From an uncultured Bryobacteraceae bacterium (GTDB lineage: Bacteria > Acidobacteriota > Terriglobia > Bryobacterales > Bryobacteraceae), in assembly GCA_937920635.1 (NCBI GenBank), contig CAKZUE010000002.1:1-45723 (forward strand): a DNA stretch of 45,723 nt, given 5' to 3'. This document shows, in pieces, positions 8,561 to 31,746 of this stretch (position 1 is the stretch's first letter; each line of letters begins with the position of its first letter). A program made the translations under genes and the position numbers. Under the pieces are notes generated by a model. It ran no database searches. It saw nothing but the letters and a program-made list of their open reading frames with translations, and was not told where the DNA came from.

Positions 8561-12790
<4,230 letters not shown>

Positions 12791-12855: not shown

Positions 12856-13212
12856 CCCCCCGGGGACGGTCTGCGCGGGGATTCGCCTGGCCAACTTTGG
12901 CAGCTTTGGGTTCCGTCGCAGGACGCGCCAGGATGACAGGGGCTGCCACGGCGCAGCCGCGCCCCACCCACGGGCGGCTCTCGCTCCTTCGGACAGCCTG
13001 GTCCCGTTCTCCATTTCATCGTTTCTTATTTCCGATGACACGCGCCTGAAAAGAGGGGCGTGTGATATTAGTGAAGCGCAGCGCGTGTCAAGCCTCCTCA
13101 CGCCCGACGAGAGGCTGTTGCTTGATTGCCGCCATATAGGATGGAAGTTTGCGCCAGGCAGGGAAACCAGTGCATTCCCTTCGCTGGGCATCGTCAGGAA
13201 AGGAGATCGGGC
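12856..13212. other. Intergenic region between rpoC and the TonB receptor
   Basis: Including the terminator, the gap is 422 bases and I see no gene in it. A possible weak extended -10 (GATATT at 13064-13069 with TG two bases before) lacks a good -35. An imperfect inverted repeat flanks 13038-13063 (ACACGC...GCGTGT). The receptor's ribosome-binding site AAGGAG is at 13200-13205. The promoter is not settled. Confidence 0.35.
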
Positions 13213-16200
13213 ATGGAATCACGCCAGAAAGCGCTCCGGTTATTGGGAATGGCGCTGCTGCTTGCTGGTAGCGCCTCGGGCCAGTCCTTTACGGGCAGGA
13301 TCGTGGGAACGGTGACGGATCCGAGCGGAAGCGTCGTGTCAGGCGCCGAGGTGCGGATCAGCAGCCCCTCCACAGGACTCGCCGTCTCCGTGCGCACCAA
13401 CGAGGACGGCAATTTCACGGCGGCGGAGCTGCCTCGCGGGGATTACCAGATCGAGGTCTCTCAGCCCGGTTTCAAGCAATTCCTGCGCCGCGGCATCCAG
13501 CTCTCCCTCGGCCAACAGGCCCGGGTGGACATCCGCCTGGAGGTGGGCAGCGTCTCGGAATCGGTGGAAGTCACCGCGGATGCCTCTCTTCTGGAGACTG
13601 TGGATTCCGTGCTGGGAAAGGTCGTCGACAACAAACGGATCACGGAACTCCCGCTCAACACGAGGAACGTGTTTTCGCTGCTCTATCTGACGCCCGGCGT
13701 GACCGGCTCCGTCAGCACGACTTACGGCACCGGCTTCGCCATCAACGGCGCCCGGAACTCGATGCTGGACATCCTCGTGGACGGAGTGAGCACGGCGCAC
13801 CCGACGGTGAACGGATTTTCAGGCAATTCCACATTCCCTCCCGTGGAGGCTATTGCAGAGTTTAAGGTTCTGGGTTCCAACTATCCCGCTGAATTCGGGC
13901 GTAGCAATGGCGGAATTGTCAACGTTGTCTATAAGTCAGGATCCAATGATTTTCACGGAAGCCTGTTTGAATTTCTCAGAAATTCGAAGCTGGACGCCAA
14001 CAACTTTTTCAACAACCGTGCAGGGATTCCGCTGGGCAGTTTCAAACGCAACCAGTTCGGGGCCATGGTGAACGGCCCGGTCGTCCGGAACCGCACCTTC
14101 TTCCTCGGCAGCTATGAAGGGCTCCGCGAGCGCACTCTGGGAAATACCATCTTCACCGTCCCGACGGATTTGCAGCGGGCCGGCGACTTCAGCCAGACTT
14201 TCTCCTCCACCGGGGCGCTCATACGCATCTTCGACCCCTTTTCCACGCGATCCCAGGGGTCCGGATTTGTGCGGGACCAGTTTCCCGGCAACGTCATCCC
14301 CCAGTCGATGATCGACCCAGTCGCGCGCAACGTGACGAAGTACTATCCGCAGCCGAACACCGTGTCCAACGCCGTGACCAACGTGAACAATTACATCAGC
14401 ACGGGTGTCCGCTCGTTCGACCAGGACCAGATCGACGGCCGCGTGGATCATAACTTCTCGAACCGGCGAAGGCTTTTCAGCCGGCTCTCCTGGCGGAAAA
14501 ACACAGACGCTCCGCCCGTGTTCTTCCCGCGCGACCTCGCCATCGCCGAGGGCAGGGTGATCCAGGGCGTCAAACAGCCGTCCGCCTCGATCGACTTCAC
14601 CGATACATTGTCACCCTCTGCGGTGTGGACGGTCCGGGCTGGAGTCTCCCGGTCGATCTTCGATTACAACAACCAGGGATTGGGATTCGTCCCGTCCAGC
14701 CTGGGTTTGCCCAAGGCTATTGACAACGTCGTGGACCGGCAGATGTTCCCGCGTTTTGGCGTATCCGGGTTCGTGAATCTTGGAGGCAACGACCACCGCT
14801 ACAGCACCTTCAATACCTTCACGCTCCTGTCCAACCTCGCTGTGATCCGGGGCAACCACAGCTTCAAATTCGGTTGGGAAGGCCGGCTCATCCGGGTGAA
14901 CGTCTGGGAAGCCCGCTCCGCTGGCACGTTCAATTTCGCTGCCGGCTTTACCCAGGGTCCCAACCCGAACCAGGCCAGTTCCACCGCCGGCCACGGAATG
15001 GCGTCGTTTTTGCTCGGCACCGGCACCACGGGAAATGTCCTCATCCGCAACTGGAAGAACGTGGCATCCCAGAGCTTCTATCATGGCTTCTACTTTCAGG
15101 ACGACTGGCGCATCACTTCCAGGCTGACGCTGAACGCCGGGCTGAGATATGAGGTGGATCTGCCCCGCACGGAGCGGTACAACCGGATGAACTGGTTCGA
15201 TGAGAATGCGGTCTCCCCGCTTGCCGCCGTCGTCCCCGGTTTCCCGAACCTGCGCGGCGGCGTGCGTTTCGTGGGGGTGGACGGCAACCCGCGCACGCAA
15301 TTCAACAAGGATTTGAACAACTGGGCGCCACGCATCGGCTTCGCCTACCAGGTGGATGCCAGGACCGTCATCCGCGGCGCTTACGGCCTGTTTTACGGAC
15401 CATCGAGGCAGGCGGCGCAGGGTACTGTTGGGCCTTTCGGCTTCCGCGTGGAGTATCCCTGGGTCACCACCACCGACGGAATCACGCCATTCAACCGTCT
15501 GTCAAACCCCTATCCGGAGGGCTTCCGGGATGTGCCGGGGCCTGCCGACGGCCTGCTCACCCAGGCGGGCGCCAACTTGCAGGCGTTCTGGCCAGATTCA
15601 CCCTCGCCCCTGAATAAAATGTGGAACTTCACCATCCAGCGGGAGCTGCCGGGCGGAGTCTTATTCGAGACCGCCTACGTGGGCAACCTGGGCTCGAACC
15701 TCAGCAGCAGCACGGAGGGCGGCCTCGAGTTCAACCAGCTGGATCCCCAATACCTCTCGCTGGGATCGGCCCTGAATCAGAGCGTCCCGAATCCTTTCTT
15801 CAACATTGTCAACAACGGCATCCACCTCTCCAAGACCGTTGCACGCGGCCAGCTTCTGCGGCCCTACCCGCAATTCACCAATGTCCAGCCGCTCTACCAC
15901 CCGACTTCCACGTCCAGCTACCATGCCTGGCAGAACACCTTCAAACGGCGGTTCGCGCAAGGCCTCATGTTCGAAGGCAATTACACCTGGGCCAAGCTCC
16001 TCGACACCGGCGACAGCCACCAGAACTCCTACGATGTTCAGGCCAGCCGCGCCCTTTCCTCGCAGGACATCGCCCACCGGTTTGTGGCGAGCGTCGTCTA
16101 CGATTTGCCCATCGGCCGCGGGCGGGCGCTAAACACGGGCGATTCCCGCTTCGCGCGCCTGCTGCTGGCCGGCTGGCAGTTCAATGGCATCGTCGTGTAC

Positions 16201-16620
16201 CAGTCGGGGACGCCCCTGGCCATCTCCGCCAACAACACCTCAGGGCTTTTTGCGGCGCGCACGCAGCCCAACAGCAGCGGCTTCAGCGGCAAAAAGTCCG
16301 GCCGTGTGCAGGACCGGCTCGACGGCTACTTCGACAAGGCCGCCTACACCCAACCGGCTCCGTTCACCTTCGGCAATCTTGCCCGTTTCTTGCCGGACGT
16401 GCGGAACGACATGGTTCGAAACTGGGATCTATCCCTTTTCAAGCAGTTCGCCGTCGCCGAGGCGGTTAACCTTCAATTCCGGGCCGAATTCTTCAATGCC
16501 TTCAACCGGCCGCAGTTCGGAACCCCGAACACCAGCGTGACGGCGCCTGCGTTCGGCGTCGTCAACAGCCAGGCCAATGCGCCGCGGCAGATCCAGTTCG
16601 GTCTGAAACTGCTGTTCTGA
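13213..16620 (+). CDS. TonB-dependent receptor, Oar-like, with carboxypeptidase-regulatory domain
   Basis: The 1135-aa outer-membrane protein has a signal peptide ([23 protein letters not shown]). A carboxypeptidase-D regulatory-like fold follows (about residues 27-110, [20 protein letters not shown]). The plug begins around 115 ([22 protein letters not shown], then [18 protein letters not shown]), and the rest is a long beta-barrel ending in the aromatic terminus QFGLKLLF. The start at 13213 is chosen over an upstream ATG at 13126 because AAGGAG lies seven bases before it and the signal peptide begins there. Such receptors are greatly expanded in Acidobacteriota and are thought to import large substrates such as glycans. 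No substrate can be read from the sequence or neighbours. The gene appears to be a single transcription unit between two hairpins. Confidence 0.93.
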
Positions 16621-17747: not shown

Positions 17748-18587
17748 ATGAGATGGTTGTTGCTTTGCCTGCTGCAGTTCCAGCTCGATTCGGCCACCCT
17801 CCATCCCGCCTCGCTCGAAGCCTTCACGAAATACATGGCGCGCGCCGACAGCGAAATGCAGGAACGCGCCCGTCCGGGCGCCGCGCCCCGTCTCGGCGCG
17901 CCGCTGGAGCCCGCCATCGCCTCGTGGCTGCCGGAGAACCCCCGGGAGGTCCCGCACGCGCTGATCCATGACTGGCTGGGCGCGGTGTTCGTGCCCGGAG
18001 CACGAGTCGAAGACGGCATCGCCATCCTGCGCGACGTGCCCCGCTATCCGGAGATTTACAGCGGCGACATCCTGGAGGCGCGTCTGGTTTCGGGCGGCGG
18101 AGACCGCCGCCGCGTGCTGTTCCGCGTGATCAAGAAAAAGGTGATCACCGTCGTGCTTGAGACGGAATATGATGTCGAGGATCATTTCCCGGCGCCGGGC
18201 CGGGCGCAGATGTGGTCGCGCAGCATCCGCGTGGCCGAAGTCGAGGATGCGGGCAAGCCCACGGAGAAGGTCAAGCCGCCGGACACGGGTTGGGGCTTCC
18301 TCTGGCGGCTGAATTCCTACTGGCACCTGGAGGAGCGCGATGGGGGGCTGCTGATGGAATGCCGCGCCATCTCGCTCACACGCGACGTGCCTGCCGCTCT
18401 CGGCTGGATCATCAAGCCCATGGTCACGAGCCTCCCCCGGGAGGCGCTCTCCGGAACGCTCGTCAAGACGAAGACGGCGGTGGAGAGGCAGGCGGCCGCG
18501 CGCCGCGCCGCCGGTAGGCTTCATCCAGCAGTTCCACCACGTGCAGCACCCGCTGGCCCTTCCCGTGCTGCGCCACGCCCGCTTTGA
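17748..18587 (+). CDS. Exported protein of unknown function, START/SRPBCC-like
   Basis: The 279-aa protein has a short hydrophobic N terminus (MRWLLLCLLQFQL) that looks like a signal peptide. The central part includes DGIAILRDVPRYPEIYSGDI, then RVLFRVIKKKVITVVLETEY and later YWHLEERDGGLLMECRAISL. This alternation of strands and a C-terminal helix resembles the polyketide-cyclase/START lipid-binding fold, but the match is by eye only. The ribosome-binding site is weak. The last 41 codons are antisense to the end of the glcF-like gene, giving a tail-to-tail overlap of 125 bases. The C-terminal tail (AAARRAAGRLHPAVPPRAAP onward) looks low-complexity and may be a read-on extension rather than part of the fold. 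Confidence 0.6.
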   Translation: MRWLLLCLLQFQLDSATLHPASLEAFTKYMARADSEMQERARPGAAPRLGAPLEPAIASWLPENPREVPHALIHDWLGAVFVPGARVEDGIAILRDVPRYPEIYSGDILEARLVSGGGDRRRVLFRVIKKKVITVVLETEYDVEDHFPAPGRAQMWSRSIRVAEVEDAGKPTEKVKPPDTGWGFLWRLNSYWHLEERDGGLLMECRAISLTRDVPAALGWIIKPMVTSLPREALSGTLVKTKTAVERQAAARRAAGRLHPAVPPRAAPAGPSRAAPRPL

Positions 18588-19821
18588 GCTGGATCGCGCA
18601 GCCCACGTTGGCCGTCGTCACGATCGACGCGCCGGTGGAGTTTACCAGCGCCATTTTCTTCTCCAGAATCGAAGCCGCCAGTTCGTCGTGCACGATGTTG
18701 TAGACGCCCGCGCTGCCGCAGCACAGATCCGCCTGCGGCAGTTCGCGGTACTCGACGCCGGGAACCGCCGCGATGAGGTTCCGCGGCGCCTGCCGGATCT
18801 TCTGCCCGTGCGCCAGATGGCAGGAGTCCTGGTAAGTCACCGTGACAGGCAGCGGATTTTCCGGCGGCCGGATGCCGATTTCGTCCAGAAACTCTGTAAT
18901 GTCTCTGACTTTAGAGACAAATAGATGGGCTTTTCCCCGGAATTCAGGGTCGTTTTCCAGCAATTCGTGGTATTCTTTCAGCGCCGATCCGCACCCGGCG
19001 GCGTTGGTGATCACGGCGTCGAACTCCTCGGCCAGAAACGCCCGGATGTTGCGCCGCGCCAGCTCCCGGGCCTTCTCTTTCAGCCCGGAGTGCACGTGCA
19101 GCGCGCCGCAGCAGGTCTGCTCCTCCGGCACGGCCGCCTCGCAGCCGTTTTCCTGGAGCACCCGGATGGTGGCCTCGTTCAGCCGCGCCGATGTGACGTT
19201 CGCGAGGCAGCCGGCGAGAAAAGCCACGCGCTTCCTTTTCTTGCCTTTTGCCGGAAAAATCTTGCCGATTTGCGAGAAAAAGAACGGCACTTCCGCTTCC
19301 GGCGCCAGCCTTTCGATGCGCCCCAGCCTGCCCGCCAGCTTCAGCAGCCCGCTGCCCCGCGCCAGCTCCTGCAAACCGGAGGCCTGGTACAGGTACAGCA
19401 GCGCTCCCGCCGTCTTGAGCCAGCCCCGCGACACCAGCAGCTTCTCAAAGACGAACCGCCGCAGCATCCTCACATGCCACGGCCTCTCCGCGCGCGCCTC
19501 GATTTCGGCCCGCGCCGCTTCGATCAGCCGGCCGTAAGGGACGCCCGACGGGCACGCGCTCTCGCAGCCGCGGCAGGCCAGGCACAGATCGAGATGTTCC
19601 ACATAGGACGGCGTGATGTCCGCCAGCCCCGTCGCCACCTGCACCATCTGATAGATGCGGCCGCGCGGCGAATCCATCTCCAGCCCCAGTTCCCGGTAGG
19701 TCGGGCACGCGTTCAGGCACAACCCGCAGTGGACGCACTTGTCCAGGTCCGCGCCCTTCGGCGCGTCGGGATGGCGGTGCGGCAGGACCGGCGGAAAGAC
19801 AGGCGTTTCAGATGCGGCCAT
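18463..19821 (-). CDS. glcF: Glycolate oxidase iron-sulfur subunit, GlcF-type
   Basis: The 452-aa protein has two 4Fe-4S clusters near the N terminus (CVHCGLCLNACP, Cys29/32/35/39, and CLACRGCESACP, Cys80/83/86/90). Two cysteine-rich CCG domains follow (EEQTCCGALHVHSGL and DLCCGSAGVYNI). This is the layout of GlcF, which passes electrons from the FAD subunits GlcD/GlcE to the membrane quinone pool during oxidation of glycolate to glyoxylate. The start at 19821 overlaps the end of glcE by 14 bases, so both are in one operon. No glcD lies in the window. Lactate-oxidising relatives share the architecture, so the substrate is inferred. Confidence 0.88.
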   Translation of the reverse strand: MAASETPVFPPVLPHRHPDAPKGADLDKCVHCGLCLNACPTYRELGLEMDSPRGRIYQMVQVATGLADITPSYVEHLDLCLACRGCESACPSGVPYGRLIEAARAEIEARAERPWHVRMLRRFVFEKLLVSRGWLKTAGALLYLYQASGLQELARGSGLLKLAGRLGRIERLAPEAEVPFFFSQIGKIFPAKGKKRKRVAFLAGCLANVTSARLNEATIRVLQENGCEAAVPEEQTCCGALHVHSGLKEKARELARRNIRAFLAEEFDAVITNAAGCGSALKEYHELLENDPEFRGKAHLFVSKVRDITEFLDEIGIRPPENPLPVTVTYQDSCHLAHGQKIRQAPRNLIAAVPGVEYRELPQADLCCGSAGVYNIVHDELAASILEKKMALVNSTGASIVTTANVGCAIQLKAGVAQHGKGQRVLHVVELLDEAYRRRGARPPASPPPSSS

Positions 19822-20926
19822 ACAGCCTCCCGGGATTCAATATTCCCGAAGGGTCGAATGCGCTCTTGATCTTCCGCATCCATTCCAGCTCCGGCCCCGG
19901 ATCGGGCCAGTAGACTCCAGCCGGCCCGTCCGACCATTCCAGCAGGCGGCTCCACGCCGCATGCGAGGCATCGCTCATCCACTGTTCCGCCTCGCCGGCG
20001 CTGTCGAATCCGAGCCAGGAGACGCCCGTCCCCGCGCGGCTCACGCATGCGCCCGGCGCCGACTCCAGCACCGCTCGCAGATCCGACAACCGGTGCCCGG
20101 CGCGCACCACGAACCGTTGCGACGGCGCGAATTCCTCCACCGCCCGCCACAGCGCCATCTCCTGCCCGCCTTCATACCGCCGCGCGCCCTGGAGTTCCCG
20201 GTCATAGCGCTCGAGCAGCGCCTCCGGTCCGCCGGCGCGCGCCAGCAGGCAGAAGCCGTCCAGCCCGGCCAGCCGCGCGGCGGCCGGGTTCAGCGCATCC
20301 ATCGCCGCCGGCTGCAACGGTCCGCTCAAAACGGCGTCGCGCCGCGCAGCCAGCTCCGCCGCGGAATCGAACACCAGCGCATAGCTGCGCGTTTTCTCCG
20401 GCTGCGGCGCCAGTTTGAAATTCACCACCGTGATCACCGCCAGCGTGCCGAAGCTTCCGATCAGCGCCTTGTGAATGTCCAGCCCGGCCACGTTCTTCAC
20501 CACCATGCCGCCCGTTTGCGCCACCGCGCCGTCCACGGTGGCGTAGCTCATGCCGATCACCATGTCGCGCGCCGCTCCGTAGAGCCGCCTCCGCGGCCCG
20601 CTCAGGTTCGCCGCCACCACGCCGCCCACGGTGCCCGTTTCCGCGCACGGCGGGTCGAGCGGCGCCATCTGCCGGTTTTCTTCGAGCAGGGCGCAGAAGT
20701 CGCGCCACTTCATCCCCGCTTCCACGCTCACCGTCAGGTCGCGCGGGTCGTACTGCCGCACGCCTGCCATCCCCGTGGTCTCGATCAAGACATCCGCCTC
20801 CGCCACAGGGCCGCCCATGCGCCGTTTCGAACCCGCCCCGCGCACCTCCACGCGCTCGCCCTCCTCCGCGGCGGCGCGCAGCGCCTCGGCGAGTTCCTTC
20901 TCGGTAACAGGTCTCACGCAACGCAT
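19808..20926 (-). CDS. glcE: FAD-binding oxidoreductase, GlcE-type
   Basis: This 372-aa protein has a PCMH-type FAD-binding domain: VEVRGAGSKRRMGGPV near residue 25, ETGTVGGVVAANLSGPRRR, then GGMVVKNVAGLDIHKALIGS. The short C-terminal half is typical of GlcE rather than the full-length catalytic subunit GlcD. I start it at the ATG at 20926 (MRCVRPVTEKEL). The frame stays open for 61 more codons, but these run through a repeated palindrome and read GDRPACPHF and GQAGLSPVF, which are repeat-derived. The ribosome-binding site is weak. The gene is transcribed away from the Gfo/Idh/MocA gene, with the palindromic repeats between them. Confidence 0.85.
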   Translation of the reverse strand: MRCVRPVTEKELAEALRAAAEEGERVEVRGAGSKRRMGGPVAEADVLIETTGMAGVRQYDPRDLTVSVEAGMKWRDFCALLEENRQMAPLDPPCAETGTVGGVVAANLSGPRRRLYGAARDMVIGMSYATVDGAVAQTGGMVVKNVAGLDIHKALIGSFGTLAVITVVNFKLAPQPEKTRSYALVFDSAAELAARRDAVLSGPLQPAAMDALNPAAARLAGLDGFCLLARAGGPEALLERYDRELQGARRYEGGQEMALWRAVEEFAPSQRFVVRAGHRLSDLRAVLESAPGACVSRAGTGVSWLGFDSAGEAEQWMSDASHAAWSRLLEWSDGPAGVYWPDPGPELEWMRKIKSAFDPSGILNPGRLYGRI

Positions 20927-20957
20927 ACCGGGTACCGGCAAAAACCGGGCAAAAACC

Positions 20958-20979
20958 GGGGACAGGCCCGCCTGTCCCC
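20958..20979. repeat. REP-like palindrome, copy 1
   Basis: GGGGACAGGC (20958-20967) and GCCTGTCCCC (20970-20979) form a perfect inverted repeat around two bases. It lies just after a short tandem repeat (CCGGGCAAAAA units, about 20935-20957). The same core recurs at 21013-21034. It lies upstream of glcE on one strand and of the Gfo/Idh/MocA gene on the other. Confidence 0.75.
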
Positions 20980-21006
20980 AGTTTCTTGCAGAAACGTGAA
21001 GCAGGG

Positions 21007-21040
21007 AAAAGTGGGGACAGGCGGGCCTGTCCCCACTTTT
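21007..21040. repeat. REP-like palindrome, copy 2, with terminator-like flanks
   Basis: AAAAGTGGGGACAGGC (21007-21022) and GCCTGTCCCCACTTTT (21025-21040) are perfect 16-bp arms around GG. The A/T ends give a T-run on either strand, so the hairpin could act as a bidirectional terminator. The core GGGGACAGGC is shared with copy 1. Confidence 0.8.
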
Positions 21041-21090
21041 GCTTTGTTCCCTCATTCTGCCAGATGAGTGTGCGGCCCCGCATGGTTCGC

Positions 21091-21105
21091 TATGATGCCT
21101 GCATG
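21091..21105 (+). promoter_or_regulatory. -10 element placed for leaderless expression of the Gfo/Idh/MocA gene
   Basis: TATGAT (21091-21096, five of six) ends six bases before the ATG at 21103, so transcription would begin at the start codon. No ribosome-binding site is visible before the ATG, and I see no good -35. Confidence 0.45.
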
Positions 21106-22305
21106 GCATCCCGGCGGAATTTTCTCTCCACGGTGGCCTCCGGCCTCGCCACCAGCCTGGCCGCGCCCGCGTCCGTCCTGGGCGCGAACGACCGCATCCG
21201 CATCGGCATCATCGGCCCCGGCTCGCGCGGCCAGGAGCTGATGCGCCACGCGCTGGCCTGCGAAAACGCCGACATCGTGGCCGCGGCCGACGTCTACACG
21301 CGCCGGCTCGAGGAAGCCAAAGCCATCGCCCCGCAGGCGAAGACCTTTACCGACTACCGTTCGCTTCTCGAAGACCGCTCGATCGACGCCGTTCTCATCG
21401 CCACTCCACAACATCTCCACTGCGAGCACTTCATCGCCGCGCTCGAGGCGGGCAAGCACGTCTACCTCGAAAAGACGATGGCCTTCACCGTCGAGCACGC
21501 CAGGAAGATGCGCGATGCCTTCCGCCGCGCCCAGAACCGCGTGGTCCAGATCGGCCATCAGTCCTGCGCCTCCGGCATGATGGCCGACGCGCTGCGCTTC
21601 CTCGCCGAAGAGCCGATGGGCAAGATCACCGCCATCCACATGACGATGTACCGCAACACGCCGCATGGCCGGCCCCAGTGGGCGCGCCCTGTCTACCCCG
21701 ACATGACGCCGGAAAACATCGTCTGGAAGGCGTTCCTCGGCGAAGCCCCCGACCGGCCCTTCGACGCCAACCGCTACATCAACTGGCGCTTCTTCTGGGA
21801 CTACTCCGGCGGCAACGTCTATGAGAACATGTGCCACCAGATCGCGTTCTGGTACAAGGCGCTCCGGCTCTCCATCCCGCGCCGCGCCACCATGACCGGC
21901 GGCATCTATCTCTGGAAGGACGGCCGCGAGGTGCCCGACACCATGTGCGTCACGCTCGAGCAGCCCGAAGAGATGCTCATCAGTTGGAACTCCGGATTCG
22001 GCAACGACAGGCTCGGCTCCGGCGAAGACGTCCTCGGCACAGACGGCACGATTGAAAAAGCCAGCCAGATCCGCTACACGCCGCAGCGTGTCAACGTAAA
22101 AGACCGCCAGGAAAAGCTCGGCGTCAGCCGCGCGCCGCAGCACGCGCTCATGGAGGATTTCATCCGCGCCATCCGCCAGGGCGGCGAAACCGCGTGTCCT
22201 TTCGAACTCGGCTTCCGCGTCTCCATCGCCTGCCGCATGGCCGTGGAGAGTTACCGCCTGGGCCGCAGCGCCGTCTGGGACGCGCAGCGCGAAGAGATCG
22301 CCTGA
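21103..22305 (+). CDS. Tat-exported Gfo/Idh/MocA-family oxidoreductase
   Basis: The 400-aa protein starts with a Tat signal peptide ([20 protein letters not shown]). The mature N-terminal Rossmann domain follows: [16 protein letters not shown], then [20 protein letters not shown] and the family motif region [18 protein letters not shown] (EK-P-like). The C-terminal alpha/beta domain includes [20 protein letters not shown], with a histidine expected to be catalytic. Members oxidise sugars or inositols with NAD(P), often in sugar or glycan breakdown outside the cytoplasm. The substrate is unknown. ATG 21103 is chosen because the Tat motif begins there; the open frame upstream is repeat sequence. 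Confidence 0.88.
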
Positions 22306-23231: not shown

Positions 23232-24444
23232 ACTGGCCGCGGAGCTGCTCCGCGCCTGCCTCGCGGATGAACCCTGGCCGGAGGAGGCGCTGGAAGCCCT
23301 CGTATCCGCCGCTCTGGATCCGCAGGAACGCGCCGCTGGCGAAGCCGCCCGCGCGCTGTTTGCAGAGCTCGTCGAGCCGCTCGCCGACCGGTTCGAGCCC
23401 CGCCTCTGCCACGCCTACGCCGCGCTGTTCAGCCGCGTGATCGCGCGCGCGATCACGGCACTCCGCCCCGATGACCTCCTCGCGCGTTACGAACAGGTCC
23501 GCCGCGTGCGCGCCGTGGACTTCGAACCCCGGCGCGTCTTCGTGCTCTCGCGCGTCACCCTGGGCGCGGACATCGCCGTCACCTCGGTGCTGCTCGACGC
23601 CGCGCGGCAGCGCTTCCCGCGCGCCGAGATCATCTTCGCCGGTCCGCAAAAAAGCTGGGAATTGTTTGAGCGCGCGCCGCGCCTCCGCCACCTGCCCGTA
23701 TCCTACCCGCGCCAGGGCGGGCTGGCGGAAAGGCTCGCTCCCTTCGAGCCTCTGCGCCAGACTCTCGATGCGCCGGACGCGCTCGTGCTCGATCCCGACT
23801 CCCGCCTCACCCAGCTCGGCCTGCTCCCGGTGTGCGCCGCCGAACGCCATTTTCTTTTCGAGTCCCGCGGCTACGGCGGAGACTCGGACGCCTCGCTCAC
23901 CGCTCTCGCGCAGGACTGGGCGCGGCGCGTGCTTGGCGTCGAAGAAGCTGTGCCCTGGATGCATCCGCGCTTCGCCTGCGAATTCGGCTCGCAGCCGGTG
24001 GCGGCGGTCAGCCTGGGCGTGGGAGAGAATCCCGCCAAGCGGGTCGAAGACCCCTTCGAAGAGGAGCTTCTTGTGCTGCTGTCGGCGCGCAAGGGCCTGG
24101 TGATGGCGGACGCCGGCGCGCCCGGCAGCGAGGAGGAAACGCGCGTCCGCCGCGCCGCCGAAAGGGCGCAGGCCCGCGGCGCGCGCATCGGCATCCACGA
24201 GGGCTCGTTCGCCTCGTTTGCCGCCATGATCGCCGCTGCGGATTTCTACGCCGGCTACGATTCCGCCGGGCAGCACGCAGCCGCTGCGGCGGGCGTGCCG
24301 CAGGTGTGCGTGTTCCGCGGCTATGCGTGCGAGCGCGCCGTGGCCCGCTGGGCGCCGGATGGCCCCGCCCCCGCCGCCATCGTGCGCGGGGCAGGGAAGT
24401 CCGCGGCAGAGATTCTCAGCGAGGTGCGCCGGGCTCTGGGGTAG
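23209..24444 (+). CDS. Glycosyltransferase family 9-like protein
   Basis: The 411-aa protein has weak but recognisable GT9 (heptosyltransferase-like) features. [20 protein letters not shown] near residue 105 fits the first nucleotide-fold strand and helix, and [11 protein letters not shown] follows. Near residue 345 [20 protein letters not shown] and then [13 protein letters not shown] match the C-terminal D-S-x-x-x-H-x-AA-x-G-x-P motif in degraded form. The N-terminal 100 residues are all-helical and unassigned. The start is TTG at 23209, inside mtnP by 23 bases, since no ATG or GTG occurs in frame nearby; GGAG lies about eight bases upstream. The 3' end overlaps the RsbW-type gene tail to tail by 29 bases. 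The sugar donor and acceptor are unknown. Confidence 0.55.
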
Positions 24445-24883
24445 CGCTCTTTGCAGGGCGCCTCTTCTTCACCATCCGCAGCTCGTTCTTCTGGCCCGCC
24501 ACGATGCGGTATTGCACGTCGTCCATGATGGTGCGGATCAGCCGCAGTCCCAGCCCTCCGCTGCTGCGCCGGCGGATCAGCTCCTCCACCGGCAGCGCCG
24601 GCTCCTGCGTCGGATCGAAACCGCGCCCGCGGTCGATCACTTCAAACGCGATCGCGTCCTCGTCCACCGTCACCCGCACCGTCACCTCGTGCGTCTCCTC
24701 GTTCTGGTAGGCGTGTTCGATCACGTTCGTGCAGGCTTCGTCCACCGCCAGCGCGAGTTTCAGCGTTTCGTTTTCGTCGAAGCCCGCCTGCTCGCCCACC
24801 GCCGACACAAACTCCCGGATGAGCGCCAGGTTTTCCGTCGACGACGGCACCTGAAGACAGAATGTGCGCTCGAAGCTCGCCAT
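24416..24883 (-). CDS. RsbW-type anti-sigma factor / serine kinase
   Basis: The 155-aa protein is a GHKL ATPase of the RsbW/SpoIIAB type. The N-box LALAVDEACTNVIEHAYQ carries the catalytic Glu and Asn. VIDRGRGFDP is the G1 box, and SGGLGLRLIRTIMDD is the lid and G2 region. Such proteins hold a sigma factor or another target inactive and phosphorylate a STAS antagonist on serine. It is the last gene of a five-gene minus-strand operon, three bases after the STAS gene. No sigma factor is adjacent, so its target is elsewhere or it acts only on the STAS partner. Confidence 0.88.
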   Translation of the reverse strand: MASFERTFCLQVPSSTENLALIREFVSAVGEQAGFDENETLKLALAVDEACTNVIEHAYQNEETHEVTVRVTVDEDAIAFEVIDRGRGFDPTQEPALPVEELIRRRSSGGLGLRLIRTIMDDVQYRIVAGQKNELRMVKKRRPAKSATPEPGAPR

Positions 24884-24886
24884 CGC

Positions 24887-25252
24887 CTATCCCTCGCCCG
24901 CCGCGGATCCGAACCGCGCCACGGCTTCCTCCACCGTCGGCTGGATGTCGAACAGCGCGGGGAAACCCAGCACGTCAAAGATCTGGTACACCTTCGGCTG
25001 GATCGACGCCAGCTTGATGTCGCCTCCCGCGCCCCGCGCCTCGTCGACGAACGTCATGAACACGCCCAGCCCCGCCGACGAGATGTAGTCCAGCCCGCTG
25101 CAATCCATCACCAGGCGGCTGCGGCCCCCGCGCAGTTCTTCTTCGATGGCGGCTTCGAACCGCGGCGCGGTGTGCGCGTCCAGAAACCCCTTCAGCGCCA
25201 GGATTCGAACGTCTCCCTCGTTTCTTGTTTCGATCAGAAAGCTCCGTGTCAC
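24887..25252 (-). CDS. STAS-domain anti-anti-sigma factor, RsbV-type
   Basis: The 121-aa single STAS domain shows the family core VMDCSGLDYISSAGLGVFM, with Ser59 in the position phosphorylated in RsbV/SpoIIAA. In partner switching the unphosphorylated form binds the RsbW-type kinase and frees its target; phosphorylation by the kinase breaks the complex, and RsbU-type phosphatases restore it. All three partner types lie in this operon. It starts eight bases after the stop of the membrane phosphatase gene and is followed by the kinase gene. Confidence 0.9.
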   Translation of the reverse strand: MTRSFLIETRNEGDVRILALKGFLDAHTAPRFEAAIEEELRGGRSRLVMDCSGLDYISSAGLGVFMTFVDEARGAGGDIKLASIQPKVYQIFDVLGFPALFDIQPTVEEAVARFGSAAGEG

Positions 25253-25259
25253 GGCTCCC

Positions 25260-27665
25260 TCAACCTTTATCGCCCGTCTCCTTCAGTCCCTCTTCTTCCG
25301 GCACGCTGCCGCTGGTGCATTGCACCGCCAGCAGCGTCCAGTCGTCGTGCAATTCGGACTCCCGCCGGAATGCGCGGGCTTCCTCCATGATCGCACCCGC
25401 GAGCCGCCGCGGCCCCTCGCTGGCGTGCCGCCGCACGAGTTCGGCCAGCCGCTGCTCGCCGAAGAGCTCGCCCTCCGGATTCATGTCCTCCGTCACTCCG
25501 TCCGAATACAGCACCATCATGTCGCCTGGCGCGAACTCGATGGTCTCCGTCTCCAGATTCGCTGCGAATGCCGGCCCCGCCGTCAGCCCCAGGCCGATGC
25601 CGCGCGGCCTGCGCCATTCGCACTCGCCGGTTTGCGCCCTCCAGAGCAGCGGCGGGTTGTGGCCGGCGCGGAGGTGCTCGGCGCGGCGCGCGGCAGGATC
25701 CAGCACCACGAGCGACAGGGTGATGAACATGCGTCCGCGGCCCGTCTCCGCCACTGCCTGATTCAGCCGCGAAGCCAGCGTCGCCAGCGCCGGAGCGTGG
25801 TGCGCGGCCGACGCCAGCATGCCTTTCAGCAGCGTCATGTGCAGCGCCGCCCCCAGCCCTTTGCCCGACACGTCGGCCACGCACAACATCCACCGGCCGC
25901 GTGGGCTGGGCAGATAGTCGTACAGGTCGCCGCCCACCTCCCCGGCGGGATGGCAGGCGGCTGCCACTTCAAAACCGCCAATCTGCGGCGCGCCCGCCGG
26001 CAGCAGCTCCTGCTGCGCCCTGCGGGCGACATCGAACTCGGCGCGCAGCCTTTCGCGCTGCGACCGTGGCAGGGCGGCCGCCGCCTCGCTCATCTTCGCC
26101 TCCACCGGCCGCGTGTCTGCCTCGGGCAGCAGGAACGAGGCTCCCAGCGCCGCGACGGCGAAGCCGAACGCCAGGGCCAGCGTCTGCCATCCCGCCGCTT
26201 CCAGCGACGGGGCAGGCATCTGCGCCAGGCGCACGCCCTGCACGGCGGCGTGCATGCCCAGCGGCGTCATCCACGCGCCCAGCATCCCGCCATAGCGGTA
26301 CGCCAGCAGATAGCCCCCCGTCAGCAGGGCCGCCGTGAGGTAGTTGGCCGCGTGGCCTGGCGGGAAAGCCGATCGCGGCAGGCTGGCTACCAGCGTTCCC
26401 GCCGCCACGGCCGCCGCCGCAGCCATCCACGGCTTGCGCACGCGCCCCGCCAGCCACGGATACAGAAACAGCGCCACCAGATACAACTCCCAGCCCGTGA
26501 CCAGCCCGGCCAGGGTCTCCATCGCCGGCCACGGCGCCATGATCAGGTTCGTCCCTTCCAGGAACCGCACCCGCGGCTGGCCGGTCCATTGAGCCACCCA
26601 ATACGGCGCCGCGCCCAGAAGCACGCCCGCCGCCATGCCCGTCCAGATCTGTTCGGCCGCCTGCCGGTTCTTCCACCGCCCGCGCACCAGCAGCACCGCC
26701 GGCGCCCACAGCCGCATCTGCGCCCGCGGCACGGCGGCGTAGGCGGCCGCCAGAATCAGGAACAGCCCCAGCAGGATCAACAATGCGAGCGTGATGCCGA
26801 AGATCAGCCGGCTGTCGCCCGTCAGCCCGTCTTCGAACGAGCGCAACAGCGCATCGTTTTGATAATTGCCCGACAGGAACGCCGCGGCGATCCCCGCGGC
26901 GGGAATCCACAGAAACCGCACCGCGAATCCGAACGGATCCGCGCGCCTCTGCAGAGTGACAAACAGCGTCCAGAGGATCAACACGGCGATGCCTGCCACC
27001 GAGGCGAATGTCAGCACCGTCAGCGCCGCCTGGAGCCTCGGCGGGGCCGGCGGCGCCTCGCCCGCCGCTTCGCGCGAGGCGGAGAATTCGTAACTGCTGT
27101 TCACCACGCGGCCGTTGCGCGTTACCACCACCACGCGGGCCAGCACTCCCTTCAGGTCCGGATCCACCCACTCCCAGGCGCTCCGGCTTCCCTCCAGCGT
27201 GCGCACATTCTCCGCCGTGCGGATGAACCGCTCCGCGTCCCCGCCCGCCAGCCGCAACAACTCCTGCTCGGCGGCGTCGGCGGTCGCCTCCCCCGTGAGG
27301 GTCTGGCGGCGGTCGAGAAAAGACAGCGGCCGGCCGTCGGCCGTCAGTGTCACCAGCACCGCGTCTCCCTGCTGGTTGAAGGCCAGCACGCGGATCCGCA
27401 CCGGCGTGAACCACTGCGCCACCGCGCTTTCAGGCTGCCGCTGCCGGATGCGCGCCAGCAGGGGATCCACCTCCGCCGCCGTGGCGAAGCGCCAGCCGCT
27501 GATCTCCACGCCGTGCGCGCGCGCCCATGCCGCCGCCCGGGCGATGGCTTCGTCCCTGCCCAGCGCCGGGCGCACGCCGCCCAGCGCGGCATCGAAGCGC
27601 GGCATCAGCAGCCACATCGAGACGAAGCCGGCGGCCGCACAGGCCGCGGCGATGGCCCGCTTCAT
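25260..27665 (-). CDS. Membrane-anchored PP2C (SpoIIE/RsbU) phosphatase, intact
   Basis: This 801-aa protein has an N-terminal transmembrane helix (about 4-20) and an extracytoplasmic domain (about 21-208). About eight transmembrane helices follow (212-513), then a cytoplasmic SpoIIE-type phosphatase (about 540-785). All four metal-binding aspartates are present: GGDLYD (Asp580), VADVSGKG (Asp598), YSDGVTE (Asp722) and HDDWT (Asp774). It should dephosphorylate the STAS protein encoded next, in response to an external or membrane signal. The ATG at 27665 overlaps the stop of the upstream paralogue (ATGA) and follows a GGAGGAGG tract. The extracytoplasmic segment shares ARAHGVEISGW (about 48-58) with its neighbour, pointing to tandem duplication. 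Confidence 0.88.
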   Translation of the reverse strand: MKRAIAAACAAAGFVSMWLLMPRFDAALGGVRPALGRDEAIARAAAWARAHGVEISGWRFATAAEVDPLLARIRQRQPESAVAQWFTPVRIRVLAFNQQGDAVLVTLTADGRPLSFLDRRQTLTGEATADAAEQELLRLAGGDAERFIRTAENVRTLEGSRSAWEWVDPDLKGVLARVVVVTRNGRVVNSSYEFSASREAAGEAPPAPPRLQAALTVLTFASVAGIAVLILWTLFVTLQRRADPFGFAVRFLWIPAAGIAAAFLSGNYQNDALLRSFEDGLTGDSRLIFGITLALLILLGLFLILAAAYAAVPRAQMRLWAPAVLLVRGRWKNRQAAEQIWTGMAAGVLLGAAPYWVAQWTGQPRVRFLEGTNLIMAPWPAMETLAGLVTGWELYLVALFLYPWLAGRVRKPWMAAAAAVAAGTLVASLPRSAFPPGHAANYLTAALLTGGYLLAYRYGGMLGAWMTPLGMHAAVQGVRLAQMPAPSLEAAGWQTLALAFGFAVAALGASFLLPEADTRPVEAKMSEAAAALPRSQRERLRAEFDVARRAQQELLPAGAPQIGGFEVAAACHPAGEVGGDLYDYLPSPRGRWMLCVADVSGKGLGAALHMTLLKGMLASAAHHAPALATLASRLNQAVAETGRGRMFITLSLVVLDPAARRAEHLRAGHNPPLLWRAQTGECEWRRPRGIGLGLTAGPAFAANLETETIEFAPGDMMVLYSDGVTEDMNPEGELFGEQRLAELVRRHASEGPRRLAGAIMEEARAFRRESELHDDWTLLAVQCTSGSVPEEEGLKETGDKG

Positions 27666-30115
27666 GCCGCCTCCTCCTGTTCCGCCGCCTCTTTGCACAG
27701 GCACACCAGCACCGCCGTCAGGTCGCTATCCAGCTTGCGCACTCCGGCGCGCTCCCGCAGCGCCGCCAGGACTCGCTCCAGCCACGGCTGCAGCGGCGGC
27801 GGATCTTCCGGGGGCAAAGCGGCAAGGATCTCCGCCGGGGCGCTCCTCTGCTCTCCGCCGAGGGCGTAGACTCCCTTCGTGCAGACCAGCAGCGCATCGC
27901 CGCGTTCCAGCCGCGTCCGGTACAGATCCGCCGAAAGCCCGGCGGACCACACCGGCAGCGCCGGTTCGAACGCGATCTGATTCTTCCTCCGCAGAAAAAT
28001 CCTCGGCCACGAGCCCGTCCGCGCCAGTTCCAGGCTGCCCGTGCGCGGATCGAGCACCGCCATCGCCAGGCTGATCTGGCTGCTGTCGCGCCGCAGCACG
28101 CCGCCCAGCTCCTTCTCCAGGCGAAACATCGCGTCGGCGGTGGAAGCCCCCGCCGCGTTCTCGTGCAGCAGGAAACCCTTCGCCAGGGCGATGGTCATGG
28201 CCGATGCCAGACCCCCGCCGCCTCCTCCCGCCACCACCGCGCACAGCCGCCCGTCGGCACGCGGGAAGAAGTCATAGAAGTCCCCGCTGGCCTCCTGCGC
28301 CACGTGGCAGACGGCGGCCATCGCCACCCCCGGCACTTCCGGGAGCCCCGCCGGCAGCAGCATCCGCTGCGCTTCCCGTGCGGCGGCCAGCTCCGCTTCC
28401 ATCGTCAGCCGTTCCGCCAGCCGAGCCGCGTGCGCCGGCCGCACCTCCTCATCGCGGTAGCGCCGGCCCAGCCACGCCGCGGCCGCCAGCGGCAGCGTCA
28501 GCAGGACCGCCAGCACCGCCACCACGTCCAGCCGCTCCCGCCAGTAAGGCGCCGTGGCCATCAGCGCGGCGATTTGGAGAAGCAGGTTCACCGTCGCCGC
28601 CGCCATCACCGCCGCCAGGTAGTCGAAGGTGAAGAACGCCAGCAGGAGCGCGCCGGCCACGGCCGCGGATTCGATCCACGCCGCCGCCGTAAACGAGTCC
28701 GCCGTGCGTCCCTGATGCGCCAGCAGCAGCGCCACCGCCGCCAGCAGAATGGCGCGCGCCCCCGCGTGCCTGAGATGGCGCCGCAGGAATGTCAGCGGCG
28801 CCAGCAGCACGAACACGCTCAGCGACACGGCCTGAATCGGCGTGTCTGTGTAGAGCTTCAGCATCGGCCAGCGGCCGAATGTGAATCCGATCGCTTCCAG
28901 CGTGCGCTCCGTCAGATCAGCATCCAGAGCGGCGCGCGCCAGCACAACCGCGAAGAACCACCACGACGCCCACACGGCCCCCGCCGCCACCGAAACGCCG
29001 ACGTTGGCCGAAAACAGCCGCCCCGTGAGCGCCGCGTCGAGCGATGTGATCTTGCCCGGCCATCCTTCCCGCAGCTCGCTCTCGCCTGCTCCGTAGGCGA
29101 TGCTCTGCACAGCACCTATCAGCGCCGCCGTCAGCGCCAGCACGCTCCAGCGGACCGCCGTGGCGATCCCGGTGAACTGCTGCGCGTCGAACCGGGCCCC
29201 CATCCTGTCCGGATCGGCGAATGCCAGCAGCAGGCTGGCGGCGGCGAACACCGCCGTCAACAGCAGCGCCCGGCCGTGCGGTGCTTCGTGCTCGATGCTG
29301 CGCCGGGCATACCGATAACAGGAGTACACCACCAGAAACACGATCAGCAGCAGACGCAGCGCGTCGAGGGTGTCCGCCGCGGCCGACGGCTTCGACAACT
29401 GGCTTTCCAGAAACGCCGGCGCGAACACCGGTTCCACGCTGCGCCCGATCACCCGTTCCCCCAGCACATCGACGCGCATCACCAGCTCCACCTCGGGTGC
29501 GTTGCGCGGCTCCAGACGCCATGTGTAGCGCCGCGCGCCCGCCGCGTCTCTGTCGGCGGCCACGCTCATTTCCGGCTCCTTCAAAAACCGGACCGCCATG
29601 CCGCCAATCCACTCCCGGATCTCGTTCTCCGCCGCCGCGCGCGAGACCTCCTCTGAGGGCAGACTCGCCGGGGCGCGCACATCGCGTCCCCCAACGCGGA
29701 AATCGGTGACAAATCCCCGCGGCCCCACGTTGGCCCGCACCCACATCCCGTGCCCCGGCTGGATCAGCAATACCTGAGCCACCGCTTCCGGCAGAAACCG
29801 CCTCACGCGGAATTGCTGTCCGACCTCGTGGCTGCGGAAATACGCCATTGCCGCCGAGCGGATCTCGAAGCGCACGTGCGCCTGCCAGCCCTCCGTCTCC
29901 ACCCCGTGAGTCCGCGCGGTCTCCCGGGCGATTTCCACTGCGCGTCCGCGGTCGATCATCATCCGGAACCCCGGCCCGCGCGTGCGGTGCTCGTGCATCC
30001 AGAAGCCCAGCGCCAGCACGAGCGGCGCGCCTGCCAGCAGCAGTCCCCACCACCGGCGCCAGCGCTTTTGCAGGAACGGTTCGAAAGGCTTGAGTAATGC
30101 TTCGAAATCGCTCAT
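27662..30115 (-). CDS. Membrane protein with degenerate PP2C domain (predicted pseudophosphatase)
   Basis: The 817-aa protein has the same plan as its neighbour. It has a transmembrane helix (about 22-40), an extracytoplasmic domain containing ARTHGVETEGW (67-77), about eight or nine membrane helices (252-548), and a SpoIIE-like domain (about 570-808). The metal site is mostly lost. SGDFYD keeps Asp612, but VADVSGKG has become VVAGGGGGG (Gly630), YSDGV has become CTKGV (Lys747), and DDxT has become SDLT (Ser797). It is therefore unlikely to be an active phosphatase. It may sense the same class of signal and modulate or compete with the intact paralogue. Both ends overlap neighbours by ATGA, so it is expressed in fixed ratio with them. 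The frame is intact over 817 codons, so it is not a decaying pseudogene. Confidence 0.85.
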   Translation of the reverse strand: MSDFEALLKPFEPFLQKRWRRWWGLLLAGAPLVLALGFWMHEHRTRGPGFRMMIDRGRAVEIARETARTHGVETEGWQAHVRFEIRSAAMAYFRSHEVGQQFRVRRFLPEAVAQVLLIQPGHGMWVRANVGPRGFVTDFRVGGRDVRAPASLPSEEVSRAAAENEIREWIGGMAVRFLKEPEMSVAADRDAAGARRYTWRLEPRNAPEVELVMRVDVLGERVIGRSVEPVFAPAFLESQLSKPSAAADTLDALRLLLIVFLVVYSCYRYARRSIEHEAPHGRALLLTAVFAAASLLLAFADPDRMGARFDAQQFTGIATAVRWSVLALTAALIGAVQSIAYGAGESELREGWPGKITSLDAALTGRLFSANVGVSVAAGAVWASWWFFAVVLARAALDADLTERTLEAIGFTFGRWPMLKLYTDTPIQAVSLSVFVLLAPLTFLRRHLRHAGARAILLAAVALLLAHQGRTADSFTAAAWIESAAVAGALLLAFFTFDYLAAVMAAATVNLLLQIAALMATAPYWRERLDVVAVLAVLLTLPLAAAAWLGRRYRDEEVRPAHAARLAERLTMEAELAAAREAQRMLLPAGLPEVPGVAMAAVCHVAQEASGDFYDFFPRADGRLCAVVAGGGGGGLASAMTIALAKGFLLHENAAGASTADAMFRLEKELGGVLRRDSSQISLAMAVLDPRTGSLELARTGSWPRIFLRRKNQIAFEPALPVWSAGLSADLYRTRLERGDALLVCTKGVYALGGEQRSAPAEILAALPPEDPPPLQPWLERVLAALRERAGVRKLDSDLTAVLVCLCKEAAEQEEAA

Positions 30116-31746
30116 CCGGCCTCAGACACCCTGCGGGCGACCATCACCGTGATGTCATCGTACTGGGGCGTCTCCTCCACAAAGCGGTTGACGGCTTCGA
30201 GCAGCCCCGCGCAGATCTGTTCGGCTGTGGCGCCCGCCAGTGCGCGGGCGGTGCTGCAAAGCCGCTCGATACCGAATTCGTCTCCCGATGGCGCCTGCGC
30301 GTCGGTGACCCCGTCGGAATAGATCACCAGCACATCGCCGGGCGCCAGCTTCAAACGCCGCGATTCATACTGTAAAGCTGGAAACATTCCAATGGGAAGC
30401 CCCGTGGCGTCCAACAGCTCCAGTTCTCCTCCTGCCCGCAGCAGAATCGCCTGGCATTGAGCTGCATTGACATACTCGCACTCGCCCGTCGCGGCTTCAT
30501 ACCTGGCCAACAACAGCGTGGCGTAACGGTTGCCCGGCATCGATCCGCACAGCAGCCGGTTGGCGCGGTTGGCCAGCTCCGTCAGCCCCAGCGGAAACGT
30601 CAGCAGCGCCCGCAGCGTTGCCTGGATGGTCGCCATCAGCAGCGCCGCCGACAGCCCCTTGCCTGCCACGTCGGCCACGCAGAGAAGCGGCGCCTCCGCC
30701 GCGCCCAGGACGTCATAATAGTCGCCGCCCACCAGGCGCGCCTGCCGGTTCGCCGCCGCCAGCTCCAGCCCCGCCACCCGCGGCAGCTCTTTGGGAAAGA
30801 GGTCCTGCTGGATCGCCGATGCCAGCTCCAGCTCGCGCTCCATCTGCCTCCGGTACAGCGTGTCCTGGATGCGCCACGCATTGTCCAGCGCCACCGAAGC
30901 CTGCGCCACCAGCGCCCCGCAAAACTCCACGTCCTCCGCAGAATAATCCCTGCCCGAACCCGGCGGTCCCAGCGCCACCACGCCGATGCTCGTCTCCCCG
31001 CTGCGCAGCGGCAGCAGCAGAAACGCTCCGTCGCGCGCGGGCTCGCCGTCCTGCGGCGCGGTCCTCTTCCACCGCTCAGCCTCCTCCGCGGAAAGATTCC
31101 GCAGCAGCGTCAGAGGCGTCTGCCCCGGCGGCCACGCCAGCAGCGCATGCTGGCGCACGGTCCACCGCCCGCTGAGCGTCAGCATCAGCAGCCGCGCGAT
31201 CTCTTCCGGATCGATGCTGGCCGAAAACGCCCGAGCCAGGTCCACCAGCGTGTTCAGTTCGTGGATCTTCTGCGCCAGCGCCCGGTTTGCCTCGATGATC
31301 TCTTCGTGCGCCAGCGCGTTTTCGATCGTCGCCGAGGCCAGCGACAACAGTGCCTGTAAGAACTCCCTTTCGCTCTGGTCCTCCGGCCAGCCGGGCCGCC
31401 GCGGCGGCGGCGCCGCCACAAAGCCCGCCTCCCGCGCTCCCTCCCCGATCGGCAGCCGCAGCGTCAACCCCGCCCGCTCCAGCCGCTCCGGAGTCACGGG
31501 CTCGCCCTCCCGGATGCCGGGCACGCCCCGCACAGCCGCCGCGCGCCAGCCGTCGCCGTCCCGCAGCGCGATCAGCGCGCGCGTCACCAGCAGCCGCCCC
31601 ATCAGCGTCCGCATCAGGTGGTTGAGCTGCTCGTGCAGGTCCAGCGAAGAACCCAGGATTCTGGCCGACTCGAGCAGGCTCTCCAACCGGCTCGCATCCA
31701 GCCGCGAATCGTCCGTTCTCTCGGCCACAGTCTTCCCAGAATACAA
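30112..31746 (-). CDS. GAF-GAF-PP2C (RsbU-type) serine phosphatase
   Basis: This 544-aa cytoplasmic protein has two GAF-like sensory domains (about 20-140 and 165-290), a helical linker (EIIEANRALAQKIHELN between them, RQMERELELASAIQQDLFPK after) and a SpoIIE-type phosphatase (about 315-540). The metal-binding residues are intact: GGDYYD (Asp342), VADVAGKG (Asp359), YSDGVTD (Asp478) and YDDIT (Asp530). It would dephosphorylate the operon's STAS protein in response to a small-molecule or redox signal. It is the first gene of the five-gene operon and overlaps the next by ATGA. The start is uncertain: TTG at 31746 lies beside a palindromic repeat, while GTG at 31728 has GGGAAG three bases upstream. 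Confidence 0.88.
   Translation of the reverse strand: MYSGKTVAERTDDSRLDASRLESLLESARILGSSLDLHEQLNHLMRTLMGRLLVTRALIALRDGDGWRAAAVRGVPGIREGEPVTPERLERAGLTLRLPIGEGAREAGFVAAPPPRRPGWPEDQSEREFLQALLSLASATIENALAHEEIIEANRALAQKIHELNTLVDLARAFSASIDPEEIARLLMLTLSGRWTVRQHALLAWPPGQTPLTLLRNLSAEEAERWKRTAPQDGEPARDGAFLLLPLRSGETSIGVVALGPPGSGRDYSAEDVEFCGALVAQASVALDNAWRIQDTLYRRQMERELELASAIQQDLFPKELPRVAGLELAAANRQARLVGGDYYDVLGAAEAPLLCVADVAGKGLSAALLMATIQATLRALLTFPLGLTELANRANRLLCGSMPGNRYATLLLARYEAATGECEYVNAAQCQAILLRAGGELELLDATGLPIGMFPALQYESRRLKLAPGDVLVIYSDGVTDAQAPSGDEFGIERLCSTARALAGATAEQICAGLLEAVNRFVEETPQYDDITVMVARRVSEAG

Follow-up and report, generated by a model that had tools for sequence, protein, structure and literature searches.

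In the window, the whole stretch of 45,723 nucleotides analysed here, the second gene of a five-gene operon encodes a membrane protein (A) that is a probable pseudophosphatase of the SpoIIE/PP2C type. This assignment is well supported by the sequence, from which we infer that A is catalytically inactive. We favour, with modest confidence, the reading that A is a dead paralogue of its downstream neighbour B and survives as the non-catalytic regulatory partner and gate of B. The finding extends beyond the window, and the sequences of relatives point to a conserved family of probable pseudophosphatases, each paired with an intact twin. A preliminary description of this DNA had proposed a pseudophosphatase within an RsbU-type operon; the census of metal sites, the loss of the AGH His and the dN/dS ratios all speak for that proposal.

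Results

Organization of the operon

The five genes form a tight operon on the minus strand, in the order C-A-B-STAS-RsbW, with A in second place:

30112–31746, minus: C, a GAF-PP2C phosphatase with intact metal motifs; start codon uncertain
30112–30115, minus: ATGA, in which the stop of C overlaps the start of A
27662–30115, minus: A, an 817-residue membrane protein with a degenerate SpoIIE/PP2C domain
27662–27665, minus: ATGA, in which the stop of A overlaps the start of B
near 27662–27665, minus: GGAGGAGG, within the final codons of A, a likely (predicted) ribosome-binding site for B
25260–27665, minus: B, the 801-residue twin with an intact metal site; ATG start at 27665
24887–25252, minus: STAS anti-anti-sigma-type protein, with a Ser within YISSAGLG
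24416–24883, minus: RsbW-like anti-sigma kinase (HATPase_c_2), containing DEACTN

No sigma-70-type promoter pattern was found between positions 22300 and 32300 of the window. The Ser of the STAS protein is presumably the phosphorylated residue, assigned by analogy to SpoIIAA Ser58. Elsewhere in the window lie two ordinary neighbours, an rpoC-like gene (8561–12790, plus) and a gene for a large outer-membrane beta-barrel protein with a carboxypeptidase-regulatory domain (13126–16620, plus), and a set of glycolate-oxidase-type genes (18463–21109, minus) encoding a GlcE-like FAD protein and an Fe-S/CCG protein.

Metal site and fold of A

The codons for the four metal positions of A are located as follows:

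28280–28282, minus: D612, the sole metal Asp retained by A (SpoIIE D610)
28226–28228, minus: G630, where relatives carry a metal Asp (SpoIIE D628)
27875–27877, minus: K747, where relatives carry Asp (SpoIIE D746)
27725–27727, minus: S797, where relatives carry Asp (SpoIIE D795)

The correspondence to SpoIIE was taken from an alignment in which positions were counted by hand; D628, D746 and D795 of SpoIIE are described as metal ligands in excerpts of PMC8080068. D612 is found in every one of 57 aligned sequences, and conservation of D630, D747 and D797 reaches 90% or more. Window A reads G630, K747 and S797 and, with only D612 left, does not have the four metal Asp of an active PPM phosphatase. 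The SGKG loop and the AGH His are missing as well, with GGGG and GSWP in their place; both motifs are conserved in B and may be needed for catalysis. B carries all four metal Asp (D580, D598, D722 and D774), and both B and C are presumably active, to judge from their sequences. The three substitutions in A, the retention of a single metal Asp and the complete set in the 801-residue downstream paralogue had all been noted in the preliminary description, and the alignment bears them out.

The SpoIIE-like fold that had been ascribed to A is likewise retained, and the structure prediction and domain alignment proposed as a check agree on the PP2C fold and the substitutions. The Pfam family SpoIIE (PF07228) matches residues 621–804 (E 4e-11, 43.7 bits against a cut-off of 25), and 32 of 33 A proteins match it at E up to 0.1. 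AlphaFold2 models the PP2C domain at high confidence except for residues 711–730, with ten-residue pLDDT means of 82–96 (561–710), 72 and 55 (711–730) and 84–94 (731–810). All 50 of the best PDB matches listed by Foldseek for the model are PP2C-type structures; the top ones are the PP2C domains of Rv1364c, RssB and SpoIIE, and the TM values by target are 0.51–0.52 (3ke6), 0.71–0.78 (3f79, RssB), 0.48–0.51 (5ucg, SpoIIE) and 0.80 (3w40, RsbX).

From the N to the C terminus, the model consists of an N-terminal helix, an alpha/beta part, a low-confidence membrane helix bundle, the linker helix (559–586) and the PP2C domain. In the full-length models of A and B (pTM 0.48 and 0.46) the membrane parts are weak. 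Two helix-plus-strands modules in the modelled alpha/beta part of A resemble PepSY repeats, a reading that Pfam backs through weak single matches. RssB, which delivers sigma S to a protease, is soluble and has an N-terminal receiver domain; such a domain is absent from A, in which Pfam at E up to 0.1 finds SpoIIE alone. No Pfam family for the membrane core was found in the 33 A proteins, where the other matches are weak: DUF4293 in five members (best E 0.023), and one-member matches to the YcdB/YcdC repeat (7e-4), DUF6732 (0.0025), YPEB_PepSY1-2 (0.042) and nine more. In 29 B proteins there are four one-member matches beyond SpoIIE, the best to DMAC1_Dmo2 (0.0015). A CPBP/CAAX-type protease core, guessed from motifs, is unsupported. 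R272, E277, R282, E345, R349, E350 and D360 are invariant among the 33 aligned A proteins, and the membrane core, with the last four of these charged residues, is a candidate sensing or binding site.

Distribution of A-type and B-type proteins

We sampled 40 loci from the family (f1), followed by 19 others, of which 16 belong to other parts of the phylum and three to the family. A profile scan of contigs gave at least 80 loci, mostly general SpoIIE proteins, together with three full-length B-like proteins from KSB1/Caldithrix. A-type and B-type proteins were separated by profile scores, which yielded 46 A, 47 B and 15 outgroup rows. The outgroup, which comprises single or twin B-like proteins from other families of the phylum and from KSB1/Caldithrix, was labelled by locus (L076–L078, L218 and L220–L229) among rows that score higher with the B profile. 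Removing two A rows that are truncated (L070 and L047) left 44; three B rows are unresolved at the motifs, a fragmented A (L075, G009) stands outside the 46 A rows, and the alignments leave out the A places G127:C569, G102:C192 and G108:C93 of the family.

All four metal Asp are present in all 44 resolved B rows and in 15 of 15 outgroup rows. The 44 A rows read DEDD (19), DSES (4), DDND (4), DDDD (3), DGKS (2) and DDNE (2), with ten single patterns. Thus half of them (22/44) are acidic at all four positions, and six, the window included, have one acid left. The AGH His is found in 0/44 A rows, in 44/44 resolved B rows and in 15/15 outgroup rows. The GKG Lys is missing in 43/44 A rows, and is present in 44/45 B rows and in ten of the 15 outgroup rows, the others having His. 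None of the printed A motifs contains SGKG; one (L214) has GGKG.

Orthologues with an intact metal site, which the preliminary description regarded as evidence against a pseudophosphatase, therefore occur in part: three rows have the four Asp and 19 have D-E-D-D, and the His is lost throughout. The three (L049, L051 and L062), in which DGSS or DGGS replaces DVSG, are possibly active or reverted forms, as far as their motifs tell. The substitutions of window A, for which a search in orthologues had been suggested, are shared in full by G044 alone.

Outside the family, 22 of 297 phylum genomes besides G000 match at 1e-50, and 16 of these 22 were analysed (G264, G293, G353, G362, G488 and G520 were left out). 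Four of the 16, two each from families f72 and f11, have an A-type protein upstream of B; the remaining 12 score B-like.

Phylogeny and stepwise loss of metal ligands

In a quick tree calculated without the motif columns, A and B each form one clade (SH-aLRT 100 and 99). The tree carries warnings for long branches (L229 and L227), one long-branch join and an odd letter make-up in 21 rows; the long branch L229 is an outgroup row, and the exact branching of the A and B clades with it is tentative. By sequence, the A clade is old and separate from B. The least number of changes between Asp and other residues on this tree is one, three, five and six at positions 612, 630, 747 and 797.

Within the genus of the window, G144 and G099 have D-E-D-D, G126 has D-E-R-A, and the window and G044 have D-G-K-S; as read from these sequences, the decay of the metal ligands inside the genus is stepwise. 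The A frame is open in all five genomes of the genus, and the open orthologues in the four others (69–85% identity) exclude a spurious reading frame.

Outside the genus, stops or frame changes interrupt A in two draft genomes, G005 (L047, 6125–8821, plus) and G009 (L075, 2666–9962, minus), where decay and assembly error are both possible; C appears to be broken in L075 too.

Selection and conservation

The ratios of dN/dS given here come from the simple Nei-Gojobori method and are rough at high GC. Over the whole gene, A and B give 0.187 and 0.231 (window–G044), 0.245 and 0.225 (window–G126), 0.278 and 0.226 (G044–G126), 0.165 and 0.177 (G144–G099), and 0.353 and 0.394 (window–G144). These codon comparisons show A to be under purifying selection, and the earlier expectation that selection maintains its intact frame holds for all five pairs (0.165–0.353). 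Together with the regional ratios, they rule out a recent pseudogene.

In the second half of the PP2C domain, the three pairs among the window, G044 and G126 give 0.35, 0.52 and 0.53 for A versus 0.15, 0.16 and 0.19 for B, while the pair G144–G099 gives 0.25 versus 0.20, without clear relaxation. The second-half ratio of A is below 1 in at least 99.6% of bootstraps. In the linker and first PP2C half, the same three pairs give 0.14, 0.21 and 0.26 for A versus 0.07, 0.13 and 0.14 for B, and G144–G099 gives 0.08 versus 0.12. Taken by region and along the genus series, the ratios indicate that the frame was kept and that constraint on the catalytic half fell furthest in the lineages that lost the last acids. 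In the clade of the window the linker and first half of A are also less constrained than those of B, which argues against A as a partner of B.

Conservation in bits was computed over the 43 loci that have both genes. The regions of A that concern its possible contacts are:

29000–29110, minus: membrane-core stretch, residues 336–372, which includes the conserved YGAGE.E.RE; its conservation in A exceeds that of the aligned B columns
28358–28441, minus: linker helix, residues 559–586, more conserved in A than in B
28085–28210, minus: switch helices, residues 636–677

The values for A and B are 3.03 versus 1.74 in the membrane stretch (with A and B only 24% identical, the membrane columns of B are perhaps misaligned and its low value is partly an artefact), 3.10 versus 2.61 in the linker helix, 2.86 versus 3.02 in the first PP2C strands, 2.59 versus 3.28 around motif 2, and 1.82 versus 2.63 in the half after the switch, which is the lowest part of the PP2C domain of A. 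In the switch helices the conservation of A falls slightly below that of B (2.46 versus 2.70), a further point against the partner reading. R569, A582, Q583, L586, K646 and G647 are invariant in 44/44 A proteins, and positions 644 and 648 are filled by hydrophobic or aromatic residues. By our hand reading of the alignment, the latter two would face the SpoIIE dimer contacts L646 and I650, contacts described in excerpts of PMC5468089.

Pairing of A with B

A lies directly upstream of B wherever the contigs permit checking. Among the matches listed, from 37 of 200 family genomes, A precedes B on the same strand at 41 of 43 B places, and the remaining two begin at the edge of a contig. Conversely, B follows at 41 of at least 46 A places in the family; of the five without a full B, three end at a contig edge, one (G052) has a partial B at the contig end, and in one (G005) A is broken and a B frame comes after it. 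Start and stop overlap at 40 of 42 A–B junctions, and a GGAG/GAGG-type string lies close to the stop of A in 35 of 42.

The full five-gene set is present in 27 of 41 loci (40 relatives and the window); the remaining loci are cut by contig ends or hold A–B pairs near which C, STAS and RsbW were not found. In the 27 complete operons, the STAS Ser and the DEAxxN motif of the kinase are each present in 27/27, as in a partner-switching module. Pairs without the other three genes nearby are L053, L055, L057, L060 and L064, four of whose A proteins are D-S-E-S; L059, L067 and L072, cut by contig ends, possibly have the same form, and G100, G145 and G155 each hold this form and a full operon. Near the operon, three loci (L069, 12158–14745; L073, 12549–15000; L074, 12319–14872; all plus) carry, on the opposite strand, a frame that matches both PP2C and RsbW-like families and then a STAS frame; by its domain matches this could be a further partner-switching unit in fused form.

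Over the 27 complete operons, the distances of A and B retain a partial correlation of 0.715 after C, STAS and RsbW are regressed out, and none of 5000 permutations, run for A–B alone, is as high. The other values are 0.017 (A–C), -0.014 (A–STAS), 0.229 (A–RsbW), 0.084 (B–C), 0.047 (B–STAS), 0.272 (B–RsbW), 0.634 (C–STAS), 0.201 (C–RsbW) and 0.232 (STAS–RsbW). Adjacency alone fails to explain the coupling of A and B, because C also neighbours A and their correlation is near zero. The C–STAS value is high as well, part of the A–B correlation might come from shared fast evolution of two membrane proteins, and the pairing could serve co-expression only, which would go against the partner reading. 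Since B is coupled to STAS as weakly as A is, these distances say little about which protein touches STAS.

Discussion

We regard A as the non-catalytic partner of B because its linker and switch core are kept, its metal site is lost and its gene overlaps that of B. SpoIIE and RsbU are reported to be activated when their linkers and switch helices dimerise (excerpts of PMC5468089 and PMC12143880). By analogy, A and B chains would form a heterodimer or mixed oligomer through these same elements. The outer domain of A, PepSY-like by secondary structure, and its membrane domain would sense a signal; by making the linker ordered or disordered, this signal would set the switch helix of B. The intact site of B would then dephosphorylate the STAS protein, leaving it free to bind the RsbW-like kinase, and C would pass a signal from the cytoplasm to this STAS protein. 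Both the A–B contact and the direction of control are drawn from this analogy. More tentatively, and short of calling it probable, we suggest that the pair is a conserved two-subunit sensor phosphatase, an obligate A–B heterodimer in which A would provide sensing and the switch-helix contact and B the chemistry. Against a dead partner count the 22 of 44 A proteins with four acids, three of them with four Asp and possibly active.

The preliminary description had offered two functions for A, gating of its twin and binding of the phosphorylated STAS protein without cleavage; the former fits the pairing and coupling of A and B better, and the latter has become less likely. As a decoy, A would shield the STAS protein from B and C. 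It does keep the fold and the first Asp, and STAS and RsbW share its operon at 27 of 41 loci. STAS proteins dock to the flap and alpha3/4 loops of SpoIIE and RsbU, according to excerpts of PMC11418112, and the half of A that holds these loops, by our own mapping, is the least conserved of its PP2C domain and is relaxed in the clade of the window. The five A–B pairs near which neither STAS nor RsbW was found also speak against a decoy, and the negligible A–STAS correlation adds little weight. Such docking loops are variable by nature and B is uncoupled from STAS too, so the evidence against STAS binding is weak, and we rate the decoy as unlikely. Only slightly less doubtful is the idea that the membrane and outer parts of A are the real worker, as sensor or transporter, with PP2C as a structural remnant and the pairing with B for co-expression. 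Among the stretches compared, residues 336–372 are the most conserved in A relative to B, and the seven charged residues listed above are invariant; the conserved linker helix (3.10 bits) and the low dN/dS of the linker and first PP2C half (0.08–0.26) would be unexpected for a pure remnant.

It is quite improbable that A is still a phosphatase of low or changed activity, in which Glu or one metal alone stands in for the usual pair. The D-E-D-D and D-D-D-D rows would suit such an enzyme, as would the G144–G099 pair (D-E-D-D), in which the second half is about as constrained in A as in B. Against this, the AGH His is missing from every A protein and the GKG Lys from all except one, window A has one acid left, and known PPM enzymes are stated to require two metals (excerpts of PMC12002173). 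Least probable of all is that A is decaying toward loss in the lineage of the window. The raised second-half ratios of the three pairs, and the internal stops in G005 and G009, both outside the genus, would point that way; the same pairs nevertheless have whole-gene ratios of 0.19–0.28, their second halves stay below 1 in nearly all bootstraps, the frame is open across the genus, and the two broken copies come from draft assemblies in which errors are possible.

As the non-catalytic partner of B, A would have parallels in several characterized systems. It resembles SpoIIE, RsbU and RsbP in having a SpoIIE-type PP2C domain behind a helical linker, and its operon contains STAS and RsbW-like kinase genes. 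It differs from SpoIIE, which carries the metal Asp and becomes active on homodimerisation (excerpts of PMC5468089), in having one Asp and being paired with an intact twin. RssB is described as a PP2C-derived adaptor of the general stress response, whose E. coli form misses part of the domain; its PP2C fold is kept for a regulatory switch instead of phosphatase activity (excerpts of PMC5468089 and PMC12143880), as proposed for A, which in contrast sits in the membrane and has an intact paralogue as its pair. The eukaryotic PP2C pseudophosphatases TAB1 and PHLPP2 likewise have an altered metal site in a retained fold, with other partners and with one metal still bound in each (excerpts of PMC12002173). 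In Trypanosoma brucei, prozyme, a dead AdoMetDC paralogue, is reported to control the live one (excerpts of PMC5201418); the enzyme is unrelated, and for A such a mechanism is only proposed. PP2C-fold pseudophosphatases are thus already known, and A adds to them a probable case that is paired with an intact twin. No such pair of a pseudophosphatase and its twin was found among the listed titles and opening lines of abstracts, with few subscription journals among them, of the literature on bacterial pseudophosphatases and acidobacterial RsbU systems.

For annotation, the name 'phosphatase' given from a Pfam match alone can mislead in the case of A-type proteins. If the proposed reading is true, A and B would be a bacterial counterpart of paralogue pairs with one dead and one live member, and would represent RsbU/SpoIIE activation in heterodimeric form. 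In a natural pair with one dead partner, what the dimer does for regulation could be told apart from catalysis. Living species would then show how the metal ligands were lost step by step, and with D-E-D-D, D-E-R-A and D-G-K-S forms inside one genus, the order of loss can be studied.
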